Source: Nocardia vaccinii NBRC 15922
GTDB lineage: Bacteria > Actinomycetota > Actinomycetes > Mycobacteriales > Mycobacteriaceae
Assembly (NCBI RefSeq): GCF_001613305.1
Contig: NZ_BDCC01000032.1
Location: 186,001 to 250,000, forward strand
Direction: 5' to 3'
Length of the DNA: 64,000 bases
The notes beneath the pieces were generated by a model, which was not told the DNA's origin, searched no databases, and saw only the letters and a list, made by a program, of their open reading frames with translations. Made by a program: the position numbers and the translations under genes. This document shows positions 46,785-53,716 of the stretch, piece after piece (positions within the stretch are counted from its first letter, which is position 1; the number at the start of each line of letters is the position of its first letter).

Positions 46785-46920
46785 CATCCGAAGCTCGCGA
46801 CCACGTGACGTCGGCTCGTTACCCCGTCTATCCTCGCGGTGTGTCGTTACACAGCCCGGCACTCGGTGATGTTCAATCGGTGCCGTTGCAGTTCCAGCGA
46901 ACGAGTGAAAGGTAGTAGAC

Positions 46921-47235
46921 ATGGCACTTCCCACCATGACAGCCGAGCAACGCTCCGAGGCGCTGGCGAAGGCTGCCGCCGTCCGCAAGGCCCGGTCGGA
47001 GCTGATCGAGCAGATCCGCAAGGGATCGGTGTCGCTGTCCCAGGTGCTCGAGCGGGCCGACAAGGAAGATCTCGTGAAGAAGACGAAGGTCGCCGCGGTC
47101 ATCAAGGCGCTGCCGGGCATCGGACCGGTCAAGGCCGCCAAGCTGATGGACGAGGCGGAGATCCCCGCCGACCGTCGCATCGGCGGCCTCGGCTCGCGCC
47201 AGCGCGCCGCCCTGCTCGAGGCGATCAGGAACTGA
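46921..47235 (+). CDS. mihF: actinobacterial integration host factor
   Basis: A 104-residue nucleoid-associated protein: LPTMTAEQRSEALAKAAAVRKAR helix, then a helix-two-turn-helix DNA-binding core VIKALPGIGPVKAAKLMDEAEI and GGLGSRQRAALLEAI, nearly as in mycobacterial mIHF and Streptomyces sIHF. It bends or stiffens DNA and supports phage integration and nucleoid structure. AAAGGTAG precedes the ATG. A tRNA-Leu gene follows about 100 bases later. Confidence 0.96.
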   Translation: MALPTMTAEQRSEALAKAAAVRKARSELIEQIRKGSVSLSQVLERADKEDLVKKTKVAAVIKALPGIGPVKAAKLMDEAEIPADRRIGGLGSRQRAALLEAIRN

Positions 47236-47333
47236 TCCGGCGGCGCTCAGCACCCGACCAGCCCCGCGACCTGCACAAATACCTGTGATTTGGTCCACGC
47301 GGACTGATCCGATAGCCTTGCTGAGCACCACCG

Positions 47334-47419
47334 GTCCGGGTGGCGGAATGGCAGACGCGCTAGCTTGAGGTGCTAGTGTCCTATTAATGGACGTGGGGGT
47401 TCAAGTCCCCCTCCGGACA
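47334..47419 (+). tRNA. tRNA-Leu (anticodon GAG)
   Basis: An 86-base class II tRNA: acceptor GTCCGGG pairs with TCCGGAC (last pair G-U), D-arm GTGGCGGAATGGCAGACGC, anticodon stem CTAGC/GCTAG with loop TTGAGGT (GAG at 47367-47369), long variable arm GTCCTATTAATGGAC, and T-arm GGGGGTTCAAGTCCCCC. CCA is not encoded. It reads CUC leucine codons. Confidence 0.97.
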
Positions 47420-47481
47420 CAGACAGTACGCCAACGTGCGGCCGGGGATTCACTTCGGCCGTAACCATGTGGTCGTCGTGG

Positions 47482-48378
47482 TTATAAGTTTGTTTCAGTC
47501 CCAATTCTCGGTAAACCTCCGGCTTGTCGTACGGGTCGGCAGCCCGCAGCACCGCCAGCAGCCCTTTCAGGTTCGAAGACCTCTGCGCCCGGTGAGCTGA
47601 TGGCCGCGCCTCGGCTCATCGTGAGCACGGCCTCGCGGCGGCTCATCGCGCCGAACGGTGAACCGCCCATCGGGTTGTTGCCCCAGATCCAGGTGGGCCC
47701 GTCGCCGAGATGATCCAGTGCCTGCTCTGCGACATCCCTGGGATCGGCGACCTCGCCGCCGGACTCGCCTTCAGGGTCGAGGACCCGGTGCATGGACGGG
47801 GTGTCGGTCTTGCCGAGCACCAGCCCCAGCACATCGACTCCGCTGTCACGCCATTCGGCCCACAAGCCTTCAGCCAGGATGAGGTCGAAGGCTTTGGTGG
47901 CACCGTATGCAGCGAGGGTTGCGCCTCCCGCCCAAGCCGCGCCCGAGGTCACCAGTACCAGAGCTCCCCGTCCTCGCGCGACCATCGGAGCACCGAACCG
48001 GTAAGCCGCTTCGAGCACACTGCCGCAATTTCGGTGAACCAGACTCAGATGGGTGTCGAGGTTCTTGTCGAGGAACGTGGCGCTGCTGTTGTCACTGCCC
48101 GCGTTGTACACGAACAGCCCGATCTCCAGTTCGGATGTCATCTGCGCCAGCTCCGAAAGGGCTTGGGGCGCACTGAGATCGAGCGGCACGGTGCGGACCT
48201 CGACACCGTGCTGCGCCCGGATGTCGTCGGCGAACGCCGTGAGAACGGGCACCCGTCGCGCCACCAGCACGACGTTCATGCCGCGGGAAGCCATTTCGTG
48301 TGCGAATGCCGCACCGACGCCGTCGGATCCACCCGCGACGATGCCCCATGGCCCATAGTCGGTCAAAGCCTTGGTCAT
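47482..48378 (-). CDS. SDR-family oxidoreductase
   Basis: A 298-residue SDR: cofactor motif VAGGSDGVGAAFA near residue 13, VYNAGS around residue 90, catalytic LVTSGAAW and YGATKAFD (Tyr-x3-Lys). Reduces or oxidises an unknown substrate. ATG 48378 has AAAGGAA seven bases upstream. The protein's last 25 residues (GGAAGCRPVRQAGG) look atypical, so the 3' end may have been altered. Last gene of the catabolic operon that begins with the alcohol dehydrogenase. Confidence 0.87.
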   Translation of the reverse strand: MTKALTDYGPWGIVAGGSDGVGAAFAHEMASRGMNVVLVARRVPVLTAFADDIRAQHGVEVRTVPLDLSAPQALSELAQMTSELEIGLFVYNAGSDNSSATFLDKNLDTHLSLVHRNCGSVLEAAYRFGAPMVARGRGALVLVTSGAAWAGGATLAAYGATKAFDLILAEGLWAEWRDSGVDVLGLVLGKTDTPSMHRVLDPEGESGGEVADPRDVAEQALDHLGDGPTWIWGNNPMGGSPFGAMSRREAVLTMSRGAAISSPGAEVFEPERAAGGAAGCRPVRQAGGLPRIGTETNL

Positions 48379-48421
48379 TGAGTTTCCTTTCCAGAATTGG
48401 ACTTGCGTCAGCTCGATAGCG

Positions 48422-49966
48422 TCAGCAGTGCACGGGCCGCCAGGACGCATCGGCGTGCTCGTTCGCGTATCGGTTCCCTGCCCGCGCTGCCGAAATCATC
48501 GGGACTTCGAGACCGATCACGACGTCGCGGGGCAGCGTGGCCAGAATTTCCGGTAGTGGCAGCTCACCTTCGCCAGGCACCATCCGGTCGATCGCGTCCG
48601 CATGGTAGTTCGCACTTCGCTGGCGGATCGTGTGGTCACTGAGCTGCGCATAACCGATCAACGCCGGATCGATGGCCGCTGGTTCGGCTGCGGAATGCCC
48701 GGCACGCACCAGGTGCATGGTGTCGATCAGCAGACGGAAGTCCGTGCGCGCCACGTAGTGCACCGCTGCCAACGCGATGTCGAGGTCGGCGATCATCAGC
48801 GACGGAGCGAATTCGATCGTCGTCCGGATTCCTCGCGTGCCCACCATCTCCGCTAGCACAGCGAACTCGTCGAAATCGCCTGCCAGGTGGACGGACTCGA
48901 CGGGCGGGAGCCCGAAGACAGTCTGGTGTTCGATGGCCAACTGGTGGCGGTTCGTCGTCATCCGGCGCGCCGCATCGAGGTGACGAAGCGCCATGCCACG
49001 TCGGTGCCCGCGAACGGTTCGAGTGACACCGCCCAGCGGGCGAACACGCTCAATTCGTGGCCCGCGGCCAGTAGCCGCTGCGCCATCGGCGTGCCCATGC
49101 TGCCGAGCCCGACCTTCACCGCGACTCCCCACGACCGGCTCGGGCGCACCGCAGGGATGCAGCACGTTCTTCTCTACCGCGTCCGACGACAGAACCGTTC
49201 CGATGATTCCCAGGTCGGCTCCTGCACGCTGGGCGACTTCACGCACCACGGTGATGTCCTCGAGCATCCAGTCCGACAACCGCGCAACGGCGTCGACTGA
49301 TCCGCCAGCGGCCACGACGCCGAAAGCACGGCTCGCGCCACTGCCGTGTTGCACAGCCGAGAGAATCGTTTTCTCCTCGATCCCCACTGAGCCCGCCAGG
49401 CGCACCGCATCGATCGCGAGACCCACCTGCGCCACGAACAGCGCGTTGTTCACGAGTTTGACCCGCTGACCATTGCCGATCGGCCCCACGAAGACGACCG
49501 GCGACGCATAGGTCGCCAATGCCGGGCGTAGCTGTTCGACAAGCGCCTCGTCGCCGCCCACCCAGAGCGTGAGATCGCCTGCCGCGATATTGTGCGGGCC
49601 GCCCGAGAGCGCGGCGTCGAGCACCCCGATCCCGCGACGCGCGGACTGCGCCGCGATCAGCTCCACGGTCGCCGGATCGCAGGTCGTGTGGGCGACGATC
49701 ACGGCTCCCGGTCTCATAGCCGCGACCGCACCAGCGGGGCCGAGACATACCGATCGCACCTGTTCGTCGGTCAGCACGGCCACGAACACCACATCCGCGT
49801 CGCGCACCGTCGCCGCGATGTCATCGGTCACGGTCAGCCCGTCGGCCGCGGCGGCAAGTTGGGCATCGGGTCGGCGCACCAGTACCCGCACGTCGTGGCC
49901 TGCGGCGGCCAAGCGGTCGATAATCGGCCGACCCATACGACCTGCTCCTATAAATCCGATCTTCAC
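48422..49966 (-). CDS. chimeric frame: hydroxyisobutyrate-dehydrogenase-like protein run into a deleted TIM-barrel isomerase
   Basis: One 514-codon frame made of unlike parts. Codons 1-265 are a 6PGDH/3-hydroxyisobutyrate-dehydrogenase-like enzyme (KIGFIGAGRMGRPI, SGGPHNIAAGDLTLWVGG, GNGQRVKLVNNALF). Codons 275-335 are Arg/Gly-rich out-of-frame-looking sequence. From codon 336 it reads as a sugar-phosphate-isomerase-type TIM barrel (HQLAIEHQTVFGLPPVESVH, then TTIEFAPSLMIADLD and LEVPMISAARAGNRYANEHADASW). The barrel probably has its own ATG at 48961 overlapping an upstream stop (ATGA) and seems to lack its central third. The GTG at 49966 follows GGAGG and overlaps the NTF2-like stop. The first enzyme may work; the barrel probably not. 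Confidence 0.65.
   Translation of the reverse strand: MKIGFIGAGRMGRPIIDRLAAAGHDVRVLVRRPDAQLAAAADGLTVTDDIAATVRDADVVFVAVLTDEQVRSVCLGPAGAVAAMRPGAVIVAHTTCDPATVELIAAQSARRGIGVLDAALSGGPHNIAAGDLTLWVGGDEALVEQLRPALATYASPVVFVGPIGNGQRVKLVNNALFVAQVGLAIDAVRLAGSVGIEEKTILSAVQHGSGASRAFGVVAAGGSVDAVARLSDWMLEDITVVREVAQRAGADLGIIGTVLSSDAVEKNVLHPCGAPEPVVGSRGEGRARQHGHADGAAATGRGPRIERVRPLGGVTRTVRGHRRGMALRHLDAARRMTTNRHQLAIEHQTVFGLPPVESVHLAGDFDEFAVLAEMVGTRGIRTTIEFAPSLMIADLDIALAAVHYVARTDFRLLIDTMHLVRAGHSAAEPAAIDPALIGYAQLSDHTIRQRSANYHADAIDRMVPGEGELPLPEILATLPRDVVIGLEVPMISAARAGNRYANEHADASWRPVHC
48958..49119 (-). pseudogene. remnant of a second hydroxyacid-dehydrogenase-like gene
   Basis: In another frame, GTG at 49119 with GGGGAG five bases upstream opens KVGLGSMGTPMAQRLLAAGH, a perfect NAD-binding N-terminus of the same enzyme family, but it jumps within 30 codons to unrelated AVSLEPFAGTDVAWRFVTSM and stops at TGA, overlapping the barrel's ATG. 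About 230 codons are missing, consistent with an internal deletion. Confidence 0.65.
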
Positions 49967-50514
49967 TGTTCCTCCACTGCCGCTGCCGCCTGCGCGGCGG
50001 GCGGGGCGAGCATGTCGCGATGTTCGGGAGTGCCGTCGAGGTTGGCGTTGATCCGCTCGGTGATCCGCCAGCCTTCCGCTGTGCGGGCCCAGCGCCAGGT
50101 GTTCGCCGAAACCCGCGCCACCCAGAACCGGTCGGCCCCGGCGTCCCACCGGATGTTGAGCGCGTAGCTGCGTCCTGTCGCCCGGTCGCCGTCGACCACG
50201 ATGTGCGGCACCGTCAGCACATGACCGCAGCCGTTGCGGATCAGGCTCTGGTGCCCACCGTGAACCATGGCGACGATGTCGTCGCGTCCTTGCATCCGCA
50301 GCTGAGGGACAGCGTCGAAGAGACCGTCCTGCGTCCACAACGCCGCCGCGGCCTCGCCAGAACCGCTGTCCACGGCCGGGCCGTACTGCGCTACCAGTTG
50401 CATGATCTCCACCTGGTCCTCCAGCAGACGCACTCGCGCCGACAGCGCGTCGATCAGCGCGCGCAACTCATCGATCTCACTCAATCCGTCCGATCCTTTC
50501 CGCTTGTGCCGCAT
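49963..50514 (-). CDS. SnoaL/NTF2-fold family protein
   Basis: A 183-residue protein: an N-terminal coiled-coil-like helix (IDELRALIDALSARVRLLEDQVEIMQLV) then an NTF2-like cone (VAQYGPAVDSGSGEAAAALWTQDGLFD, GRDDIVAMVHGG, NTWRWARTAEGWRITERINANLDG), as in SnoaL_4 dehydratases or isomerases. Start at ATG 50514 or at TTG 50484, which has AAAGGA nine bases upstream. The stop overlaps the dehydrogenase GTG (GTGA). It follows the alcohol dehydrogenase by 16 bases. Confidence 0.82.
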   Translation of the reverse strand: MRHKRKGSDGLSEIDELRALIDALSARVRLLEDQVEIMQLVAQYGPAVDSGSGEAAAALWTQDGLFDAVPQLRMQGRDDIVAMVHGGHQSLIRNGCGHVLTVPHIVVDGDRATGRSYALNIRWDAGADRFWVARVSANTWRWARTAEGWRITERINANLDGTPEHRDMLAPPAAQAAAAVEEQ

Positions 50515-50530
50515 GGTCGCCGGCGGTTTT

Positions 50531-51586
50531 TCAAGGAACCACGACGATGCGCGCCGGACCGCTGGCGTCGCGGGCAGCATCGAGCGCCTCGGATACCTGG
50601 TCGAGTCCGACGGTCCAGCCCAGCATCGGGGAGACATCCAGATCGCCCGAGCAGACCGCTTCGAATGCCTCGGTCCAGTGGGCAGGCAACGGGCCACCAC
50701 CGAACTGGATGTTCAAGCCTTTACGCTTGGCGGTCAGCGTGTGGAGATGGTCGCCCTCCGGCGGACCACCCACGGAGAAAATCCGCGTACTGCGCTCACA
50801 TCCCTTGATGATCGAGTCGAGCACGCCGGGAATACCGACGCATTCGAACACCACGCAGCCCGGCAGACCGGCCGCGCCGATCATGTCCTTCATCGGCTCG
50901 CCCGACCTGCGCACCACATCACGCCACGCCCGATACGGCGAGACCTCGGCCGGATCGACCACCACGTCAGCACCCATCGCCAGCGCCGTCTCCCGCCGGG
51001 CCGCCACGAAATCGACCGCCACGATCGGCCCCACACCCAAACGTTTCAGATGCGCGATCGCCGACAGCCCGATCGCACCGCACCCGAGCACCAGCGGTAC
51101 CTCCCTGGTCGTCACCTGTGCGCGTGCCGCAGCCGACCAGCCCACCGAGATCCCGTCCGCGATGCATACGACCTCGCTCGGCAAATCCGACACCACGACC
51201 TGGGTGAGAGCCTCGTCCAGCAACAGATACTCACCGAAACCACCAGGCGACTCCGGATTCTGGCCGATGATCTTGCGCCCGTCCGCGGTGGACAGGATCG
51301 GCAGCGAGCTCACCCGCGTTCCGATGGGGATCGCGCGCTCGGTCGCCGGACCATAATCGGTGACCTCGGCGCAGTATTCGTGCCCCATCACGATGTCCTG
51401 ATCCTGGTCGTAGGTCGACATCCCGCTGTCGTCCTCCGCACCCGCCTCCGGGTGATCCATGAAATGCAGATCCGACGCGCAGATCCCGCACGCGAGGGTC
51501 CGGACCAGCAACTGGCCCGGACCTGGAACCGGGTCTTCGACAACCCGCGTCTCGACCCGCCCACCTCGTAGCACAGCAGCACGCAT
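50531..51586 (-). CDS. zinc-type MDR alcohol dehydrogenase
   Basis: A 351-residue medium-chain dehydrogenase. Catalytic zinc site residues lie in LACGICASDLHFMDH and MGHEYCAEVTDYG; the NAD(P) motif is VLGCGAIGLSAIAHLKRLG around residue 165, with an Asp after it (VAVDFVAARR) favouring NAD. The structural zinc loop with four cysteines appears missing. First gene of a minus-strand operon, divergent from a TetR regulator. Substrate unknown; the operon suggests stepwise oxidation of an alcohol-bearing compound. Confidence 0.9.
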   Translation of the reverse strand: MRAAVLRGGRVETRVVEDPVPGPGQLLVRTLACGICASDLHFMDHPEAGAEDDSGMSTYDQDQDIVMGHEYCAEVTDYGPATERAIPIGTRVSSLPILSTADGRKIIGQNPESPGGFGEYLLLDEALTQVVVSDLPSEVVCIADGISVGWSAAARAQVTTREVPLVLGCGAIGLSAIAHLKRLGVGPIVAVDFVAARRETALAMGADVVVDPAEVSPYRAWRDVVRRSGEPMKDMIGAAGLPGCVVFECVGIPGVLDSIIKGCERSTRIFSVGGPPEGDHLHTLTAKRKGLNIQFGGGPLPAHWTEAFEAVCSGDLDVSPMLGWTVGLDQVSEALDAARDASGPARIVVVP

Positions 51587-51671
51587 GCGCTTCCTCCTCG
51601 CTCTACATGCGAAGCCTCACTTCCGATCACAGCCCGCATACCGATCTTGGGATCGTATCTACGACTGCTCA

Positions 51672-51716
51672 ATTACGGAATAGACTCTCCTAAATTATTT
51701 CGGTACTCACTCTCCT
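51672..51716. promoter_or_regulatory. tandem 20-bp direct repeats between divergent tetR and adh operon
   Basis: ATTACGGAATAGACTCTCCT (51672-51691) and ATTTCGGTACTCACTCTCCT (51697-51716) match at 15 of 20 positions with a 25-base period. They sit in an AT-rich patch between the divergent genes, the expected place for the TetR operator and both promoters. Confidence 0.55.
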
Positions 51717-51781
51717 GAAACTCGGAGCGGCGGAAACGATGGCAGGCTGGTGTCCGGTCGGTCTCCCGCTACGATCGCGGT

Positions 51782-52384
51782 ATGTCAGAGCCAGTCCGCC
51801 GCCCCGGCCGCCCCCGCGACACCGGCATCGACGAGCGGGCGATCGCGGCAGCACGCGAGCTGCTCATCGAACACGGGTTCGAGGCGACAACCATCCAAGC
51901 CATCGCCGCGCGCTCCGGCGTGCATGCCTCAGCCATCTACCGGCGGTGGCCGTCACGGATCGAGCTGATCGAGGAAGCCGCCTTCCCCGGTTTCAGCCCG
52001 TTCGATGTCCCGCCGACCGGTAATCTGCGCCGCGACCTGCGCCGCTTCATCCGCGCCTATATGGCCGCCTTCGACGCCCCCGCGGCACGTGCGGCAGCGG
52101 CAGGTCTGCTCGCGTATCGGCGGACCTCGACACCCACCGGCCCACCCGCGACATACCTGGGCGTGTCGGCACGCCCCCAATTCCAAGACATTCTGCGCAG
52201 CGCACCACATGGAAGCATCGACTCGCACGTCGACCCGGACGATGTCTTCGACATGCTCCTCGGCGCCGTCCTGACCCGCACTCTCGCATTCCCCGTCACA
52301 GCACGACACCGCCCCATCGAGCGCACGGTTGAGATGATTCTGCGGCTGCTGCAACCCAGAATTGACGACTGCCCTACCGACTAG
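51782..52384 (+). CDS. TetR/AcrR-family transcriptional regulator
   Basis: A 200-residue TetR-type repressor. The helix-turn-helix is GFEATTIQAIAARSGVHASAIYRRWPSRIELI at about residues 36-67; the C-terminal two-thirds is a helical ligand-binding domain. Divergent from the alcohol dehydrogenase operon, with a tandem repeat between, so it most likely represses that operon and itself until an operon-related ligand binds. Confidence 0.92.
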   Translation: MSEPVRRPGRPRDTGIDERAIAAARELLIEHGFEATTIQAIAARSGVHASAIYRRWPSRIELIEEAAFPGFSPFDVPPTGNLRRDLRRFIRAYMAAFDAPAARAAAAGLLAYRRTSTPTGPPATYLGVSARPQFQDILRSAPHGSIDSHVDPDDVFDMLLGAVLTRTLAFPVTARHRPIERTVEMILRLLQPRIDDCPTD

Positions 52385-52533
52385 TCGAGGCCGGGCTGCC
52401 GGTGCAGGTGCTGACCATGATCCCCACCCCAGGCAGCACACCCACCCCGAACGCGGACTGCACCCGTATCTGGACCACCAGACGCGTGGACCCCGCATTC
52501 ACCTGGTGGATACGCACCAAGGCGCTCGGATGA
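52381..52533 (+). pseudogene. possible MerR-family regulator fragment
   Basis: Just past the TetR stop, another frame reads YRLVEAGLPVQVLTMIPTPG and ends at TGA 52533 after about 50 codons. LVEAGLP plus a Pro-rich, Cys-containing stretch resembles the effector region of MerR-type regulators. No DNA-binding part exists, so it would be a remnant. Weak call. Confidence 0.3.
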
Positions 52534-52659
52534 CCCGCGCGAGCACCCGGCATGCTCGGCCGGCACCTAAAGGTCGACGACGCGATGCCCAGGACTCGCA
52601 ATACGAGCTCGACCGGATACTGCGGGTGATCTTCCACGAACCCACACCGCACGGGCCCC

Positions 52660-53586
52660 TCAACTCGGGCTTGTCGCCGCGTGCAGGGGTTCGTCGTTGT
52701 GCAGGGTTGCGACAGTATCGGCGAGTAGCGGTGCGATCGAGCACACTTCGAATTCGGGTGGCAGGTGGTGGTGGGCGATGGTGTCGGTGATGAGTATGTG
52801 TTGCAGGCCGAGCCTACGGAGGCGGCCCACGGCTCCGTGTGTGAATACGGCATGTGTGGCCGCGACGGTGACCTCAGCGGCGGCGTTGTGCTGGCGTAGC
52901 AGCCCGAGCGCGGTGCCGATGGTGGCGCCGGTGGAGATCATGTCGTCGATGATCACCGGCAGCCTTCCCTGTACGTCGCCGATCAGCTCCAGTGCGGTGA
53001 CCTCGGTGCCGCTTTCGCGGCGTTTGCGCACCACCGCAAGGGGATTCGGTGATTCCGCCGCATAGTGCTCGGCGAGTTTCACCGCACCTTCGTCGGGAGC
53101 GACGAGTACCCGGTCCGGCAGGGTGATCTTGCGGGCGAGGACGGGGACTGCAGTGACTGTTTCGACCGGAACGGGGCTGATCGCCTCGAGGGTGGGGGTG
53201 TGTGGGTCCACGACCACGAGGCGATCCGCGCCGGCGGCGGCGATGGCCCGGGTGAACACCGCGACGCCGACGGGTTGCCCGGCGCGGGTGCGGCGGTCCT
53301 GGCGGGCGTAGCCGAGGTACGGTACCACCGCGGTCACGCGCGTTGCGTGGGCACGTTGGCAGGCGTCGAGCAACAGCAGCAGTTCCGCGAGGTGGTCGTT
53401 GACCGGCGGCGGGGTCGATTGCACGACGTATACGTCGCTGCCGCTGACGTTCTCGACCGTTGGAAGCAGTTCGCCGTCGGGAAATCGTTCCAGTACGGTG
53501 TCGGCCGGGCCGGCTCCCAGAAGGTTCGCGAGGGCACCGGCCAGCTCCGGAGTGGCGCTGCCGGCGATGATCCGCAGCGTGGTCAT
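52660..53586 (-). CDS. prs: ribose-phosphate diphosphokinase (PRPP synthetase) homologue
   Basis: A 308-residue PRPP synthetase-type protein, converting ribose 5-phosphate and ATP to PRPP. ATP flexible loop region VPYLGYARQDRRT, the VVVDPHTPTLEAISP site and the PRPP-binding IIDDMISTGATIG are present. It is somewhat divergent (ELAGALANLLG start, HTP instead of HSxQ), so it is probably an accessory copy rather than the housekeeping enzyme. AAAGGA lies about 13 bases before the ATG. The neighbouring phosphoribosyltransferase could use its product. Confidence 0.85.
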   Translation of the reverse strand: MTTLRIIAGSATPELAGALANLLGAGPADTVLERFPDGELLPTVENVSGSDVYVVQSTPPPVNDHLAELLLLLDACQRAHATRVTAVVPYLGYARQDRRTRAGQPVGVAVFTRAIAAAGADRLVVVDPHTPTLEAISPVPVETVTAVPVLARKITLPDRVLVAPDEGAVKLAEHYAAESPNPLAVVRKRRESGTEVTALELIGDVQGRLPVIIDDMISTGATIGTALGLLRQHNAAAEVTVAATHAVFTHGAVGRLRRLGLQHILITDTIAHHHLPPEFEVCSIAPLLADTVATLHNDEPLHAATSPS

Positions 53587-53716
53587 GATCGTCTGGTGTC
53601 CTTTCCGGTCGCGGTCGGGCGAGCATCGAAGCCGGCGCGGCAAACGGGCGAGGAACGACGCAGCTGCTCCAGCGCGTCGTTCTCGGAGAACCGTTGCACT
53701 GCACCGGATTTCCTTG

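Follow-up and report, generated by a model that had tools for sequence, protein, structure and literature searches.

The question raised by this locus is how parts of three genes came to lie in and along a single open frame of 514 codons (49966-48422, minus strand) in the window analysed here, a stretch of 64,000 nt from the draft genome assembly of Nocardia vaccinii NBRC 15922 (9.22 Mb, 141 contigs). The frame is found in a minus-strand cassette with six oxidoreductase-operon genes, for a zinc-dependent alcohol dehydrogenase (ADH), a SnoaL-like protein, two proteins similar to hydroxyisobutyrate dehydrogenase (HIBADH), here HIB1 and HIB2, a TIM-barrel protein and an SDR oxidoreductase, with a TetR-type regulator placed divergently. 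Damage is confined to the middle genes HIB1, HIB2 and TIM, and the outer operon genes are whole. The features are the following:

47334..47420, plus strand: tRNA-Leu (GAG), adjoining the SDR end of the cassette
47482..48378, minus strand: open frame of the SDR oxidoreductase, its C-terminus extending about 36 aa beyond that of the N. alni SDR
48422..49966, minus strand: 514-aa open frame comprising HIB1, out-of-frame HIB2 DNA and the TIM remnant
48422..48961, minus strand: TIM-barrel (xylose isomerase-like) remnant, 270 nt shorter at 48875/48874 than in five references
48958..49119, minus strand: what is left of HIB2, 53 codons against the 269 of P. soli, with the N-terminal part followed directly by the final dozen codons
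49120..49141, minus strand: altered HIB1/HIB2 spacer, no HIB1 stop
49142..49966, minus strand: HIB1, HIBADH-like, near complete
49963..50484, minus strand: SnoaL-like protein, whole, GTGA overlap with HIB1
50531..51586, minus strand: zinc-dependent ADH, whole, 351 aa as in the loci L073 and L080
51782..52384, plus strand: TetR-type regulator, full length, divergent, with a counterpart at this position in 10 of the 14 other cassettes
52570..52642, plus strand: transposase scrap beyond the cassette end opposite the tRNA, matching contig C7 of the same genome at 92% over 73 nt

The regulator at 51782-52384 is presumably of the TetR type (with a below-cut-off ScbR-type match), and the transposase scrap at 52570-52642 is putatively of the IS3 type, as read by eye. 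DNA homology to the Parafrankia cassettes, regulator included, extends over about 47610-52357 of the window, and the edge of the cassette homology is at about 47605, inside the SDR C-terminus and about 185 nt from the tRNA-Leu (GAG) gene. By this tRNA, in a stretch well conserved in relatives, there is an ORF (46921-47235) that putatively resembles the actinobacterial integration host factor.

An earlier, sequence-only reading had described an almost complete HIBADH-like gene, a second one cut to its N-terminus and a TIM-barrel gene without its centre, lying in tandem and fused, with normal start/stop overlaps. The first part agrees with the Pfam matches of the 514-aa frame, in which HIB1 carries NAD_binding_2 (profile positions 1-159 of 161) and NAD_binding_11 (1-93 of 122), both above the cut-off; the other match is to part of the xylose isomerase-like TIM barrel. 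HIB1 scored 105.7 bits against TIGR01692, curated for true HIBADH, below the cut-off of 291.6, so that it is a relative within the HIBADH superfamily and is not assigned as a true 3-hydroxyisobutyrate dehydrogenase. It matches beta-hydroxyacid dehydrogenases (PDB 3w6u, 9k2j) up to residue 257 and aligns collinearly with P. soli HIB1 to about 49142; its identity to three outgroups is 62-65%, versus 63-67% for P. soli HIB1. HIB2 left a 63-aa mechanical ORF holding 49119-48958, with an NAD_binding_2 match (E 5.1e-07), which is the N-terminus described, but about a dozen C-terminal codons are also kept and the start is about 9 nt short. A tblastn search with the intact N. alni TIM protein recovered only residues 10-33 and 123-256 in the window, in agreement with a missing centre, and a 1-nt difference in the tail is added to this. 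With its stop lost in the altered HIB1/HIB2 spacer, the HIB1 frame continues across HIB2 DNA and on into the TIM remnant; HIB1 and TIM are therefore joined in frame as described, but HIB2 is crossed in another frame. The overlaps of SnoaL/HIB1 (GTGA) and HIB2/TIM (ATGA) are present, but the GTGA at 49119-49116 is no HIB1 stop and is crossed by the HIB1 frame, which makes this overlap abnormal. HIB1 may still be working, with a useless tail.

A profile search with the TIM family in bacterial and archaeal genomes gave 86 relatives, the best 80 of which were kept; eight of these 80 TIM loci had a match of more than 45% identity to HIB1, ADH, SDR or SnoaL. The order ADH-SnoaL-HIB1-HIB2-TIM-SDR was found in both Parafrankia soli and P. 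colletiae. The cassettes of P. soli NRRL B-16219 (L079) and P. colletiae Cc1.17 (L078) have the same gene order as the window and a divergent regulator, with 68-82% protein identity to the window pieces; unlike in the window, HIB2 and TIM are open in both, and the P. soli HIB1 ends at a stop of its own. The P. soli cassette has SnoaL, HIB1, HIB2, TIM and SDR open and ADH aligned over all 351 residues, with a few ambiguous bases in its DNA. In P. colletiae, HIB1 is split by a frameshift (L078:4506-4515), either real or a sequencing error. Since the order of the pieces in the window matches that of the intact operon, the tandem pieces are real and not a product of chance, and the ancestor proposed earlier, a compact operon that lost internal segments, is matched by the complete P. 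soli cassette and by that of P. colletiae, in which the genes are likewise ordered and HIB1 is frameshifted.

Fourteen other cassettes were compared (tblastn, E ≤ 1e-8). In eight, SnoaL and SDR have neither a HIB nor a TIM gene between them; two (N. alni and Rhodococcus sp. SMB37) have TIM alone of the three, two have the full set, one of them with the frameshifted HIB1, and two have other partial sets (Frankia sp. AgB1.9 and Trebonia). Four-gene cassettes in Nocardia and relatives (L159, L160, L171), with the layout TetR / ADH-SnoaL-SDR, have a core homologous to that of the window and, unlike it, no HIB1, HIB2 or TIM between SnoaL and SDR. Frankia sp. AgB1.9 has HIB2 and TIM, lacks SnoaL and HIB1, and carries an SDR-like gene in the opposite orientation; by eye, the leader and first codons of its HIB2 (L080:5080-5200) resemble Parafrankia HIB1, as if the starts of the paralogues had recombined and HIB1 had been removed. 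Trebonia has ADH-SnoaL-HIB1 and a distant TIM in the opposite orientation. In N. alni, the TIM gene is preceded by a stretch resembling, by eye, the HIB1 leader of the window, and the regulator copy sits at a contig end. One of the eight reduced cassettes, in genome G069, has a TIM gene (L162:4801-5592; 58% identity to the N. alni protein) beyond SDR rather than between SnoaL and SDR. HIB1-TIM pairs outside this cassette were found in three other genomes of the family, and G321 has such a pair and a reduced cassette on separate contigs. The literature search found no paper on the cassette, which does not show that none exists.

The alignment with intact operons proposed in the sequence-only reading was made against P. 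soli, P. colletiae and Frankia sp. AgB1.9, with N. alni and Rhodococcus sp. SMB37 added for TIM, and it placed the two larger gaps. The references are about 72-78% identical in DNA to the window, so the ancestral sequence itself is not seen. The HIB2 gap is 642 nt at about 49000/48999, equal in size against the three references, and the TIM gap is 270 nt, equal in size against all five (P. soli, P. colletiae, AgB1.9, N. alni and SMB37). Also, about 9 nt are gone near the HIB2 start, as placed by pairing the letters by hand (MAFFT put this gap elsewhere), and the 3' end of TIM has a 1-nt length difference beside a G run, by which the last codons are shifted. Of short repeats at the breakpoints there are traces: for the HIB2 gap, P. 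soli has GTGGC on the left, whereas P. colletiae and AgB1.9 have it on the right, and none of the references carries it on both sides; TCGG is on both flanks of the 9-nt gap in AgB1.9 only, whose HIB2 start resembles that of HIB1, and at the TIM gap 1-2 nt at most are shared. This repeat signal is weak, and the reading of the locus as decay does not rest on it. For 46800-53700, 20 of the 25 families of direct repeats and 25 of the 33 pairs of inverted ones were inspected, in a search blind to copies taken out by a deletion; none of these marks the breakpoints, and the longest direct repeats among them are ≤31 nt and 63-88% alike. The genome encodes Ku, so end joining is possible; in M. smegmatis, according to the excerpt of PMC3519483 used here, direct repeats induce loss of the intervening sequence independently of end joining.

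The segments gone are essential to the fold: HIB2 has 53 of 269 codons left and TIM lacks three of eight strands. The intact N. alni TIM protein is modelled as a barrel (mean pLDDT 93.7, pTM 0.90, 27 rows), and intact TIM relatives match PDB 2g0w and IolI (1i60), whereas the window copy is without residues 33-122 of 287, which hold the modelled strands 37-39, 77-80 and 109-114, that is, strands 2-4 of 8. By this model of the N. alni protein, the window piece falls three strands short of an eight-stranded barrel. Both HIB2 and TIM are probably no longer working. At E ≤ 0.001 the genome yielded no second TIM gene of this family, and the closest HIB2 paralogue in it is 41% identical. A tandem pair of HIBADH-like genes is also present on contig C12 of this genome (L075:4339-6005), with a similar pair in genome G022 (L076:3581-5448).

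The age of the loss was approached through nonsynonymous change (dN) over 134 codons shared by the TIM remnant and the intact N. alni gene, comparing their distances to four outgroups with bootstrap. The mean dN difference was -0.001 (bootstrap 95% -0.049 to 0.053), so the remnant has no dN excess over N. alni of the kind that relaxed constraint would leave. As controls with three outgroups each, ADH gave 0.007 (-0.013 to 0.026), SnoaL 0.001 (-0.025 to 0.020) and SDR 0.022 (0.001 to 0.041), the last slightly above zero though the SDR frame is open. Had the remnant been unconstrained since the split from N. alni, an excess of about 0.28 (half of dS minus dN) would be expected; with about 0 observed, the loss spans at most about one fifth of the time since that split, which is a rough bound. 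Amino acids in the TIM remnant have not been changing any faster, and the loss is accordingly recent.

Here it is proposed, with a probability of about 0.72, that the locus is a partly decayed accessory block in a horizontally scattered oxidoreductase cassette, in which HIB2 and TIM have suffered recent damage. The ancestor would have been TetR / ADH-SnoaL-HIB1-HIB2-TIM-SDR; in this Nocardia lineage separate recent deletions, probably by replication slippage or end joining, would have hit HIB2 and TIM, and a changed HIB1/HIB2 spacer would have dropped the HIB1 stop, letting HIB1 run into the TIM remnant. The intact order in Parafrankia, the constant gap sizes and the eight of 14 cassettes without the three genes speak for this proposal. 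The excerpts of PMC2916853 and PMC522871 used here describe pseudogenes as commoner in horizontally acquired DNA and gene parts as removed by deletion, which the first of them gives as the primary force eroding bacterial pseudogenes; the window genes, similarly, lost parts by deletion. With this, and with the three genes absent in eight of 14 cassettes, the earlier view that the pattern is unusual for simple decay was not upheld, and ordinary gene decay caught early, with the accessory block half-way lost, is explanation enough. Against it, several deletions without substitution decay are not the commonest pseudogene picture: in the same excerpt of PMC2916853, 346 of 378 Salmonella pseudogenes have a single inactivating mutation, unlike the window, which has several, in adjacent genes. 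Several deletions ahead of any substitution excess are therefore somewhat unusual. Loss rather than gain is also not proven in each reduced cassette, given the weak tree nodes described below.

The draft status of the assembly is the main caution. An assembly or sequencing artefact, with the stretch closed wrongly and the segments missing from the assembly but present in the cell, is unlikely. It would agree with a draft of 141 contigs, with the crowding of indels in 1.5 kb, with a TIM remnant without substitution decay, as expected of a truly intact gene, and with one difference being 1 nt beside a G run. However, the locus lies 234-236 kb into a 262-kb contig, away from its ends, the neighbours align well (935 columns without length change at 52675-53609, and ADH at full length), and the 642-nt and 270-nt gaps both keep the frame. 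The stretches shared at the breakpoints are also ≤5 nt, too short to mislead a k-mer assembler.

All three measurable gaps (about 9, 642 and 270 nt) have a length divisible by three. Simple decay would give this about once in 27 cases, and it counts to that extent against such decay; either chance or avoidance of polarity on SDR may account for it. Because there are three events only and the case was picked for its open frame, this is treated as a lead. It is rather unlikely that a polarity filter acts on operon decay, internal genes being pruned mainly in frame as frame-breaking deletions would silence the useful last gene, and quite improbable that the real decay here was shaped in this way, by favouring translation-preserving deletions so that the downstream SDR stays expressed. 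SDR is indeed open and begins 43 nt after the TIM stop, and the SnoaL and SDR alignment ends are 8 to 108 nt apart in the eight reduced cassettes, but frameshifts are present in the TIM tail and in P. colletiae HIB1. If true, the filter would be visible in the frame-keeping gaps with the terminal SDR kept, and in the closeness of SnoaL and SDR in the related cassettes.

A new functional fusion protein is very improbable and was set aside, because although its 514 codons are open, with HIB1 nearly complete and no surplus of amino-acid changes in the TIM remnant, the two parts are linked by HIB2 DNA in the wrong frame, the TIM part lacks the strands named above and has a shifted tail, and HIB and TIM are separate frames in all six examined loci where a HIB gene adjoins TIM, among which the counter-case named at the outset, a 514-residue protein conserved in many genomes, found no example. 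In annotation, the frame should not be called a bifunctional enzyme.

The description of the cassette as horizontally scattered agrees with its distribution. In the genus, at least six of 149 other genomes had an ADH-SnoaL match over ≥1,500 query bases; ADH was found at E ≤ 1e-130 in four of 400 other genomes of the family sample and in none of 395 of the phylum sample. In the core-gene tree the window joins N. alni (split support 89; 86% identity over 743 columns). Support at many of the other nodes is 20-52%, too low to tell gain from loss in every lineage. The insertion of the HIB genes into the cassette of this genome was considered, as the other Nocardia cassettes compared are without them, and was not preferred; the HIB genes occupy this very position in Parafrankia, and loss from the other cassettes therefore fits at least as well. 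In G023, of the same genus, the cassette flanks are about 1.1 kb apart, versus about 5.3 kb here; this spacing, together with the flanking tRNA-Leu and the transposase scrap at the opposite end, fits an arrival of the cassette at this place. Full, damaged and reduced states of the cassette coexist in related actinomycetes, and the N. vaccinii locus is a snapshot of how an accessory block may leave a scattered catabolic cassette.
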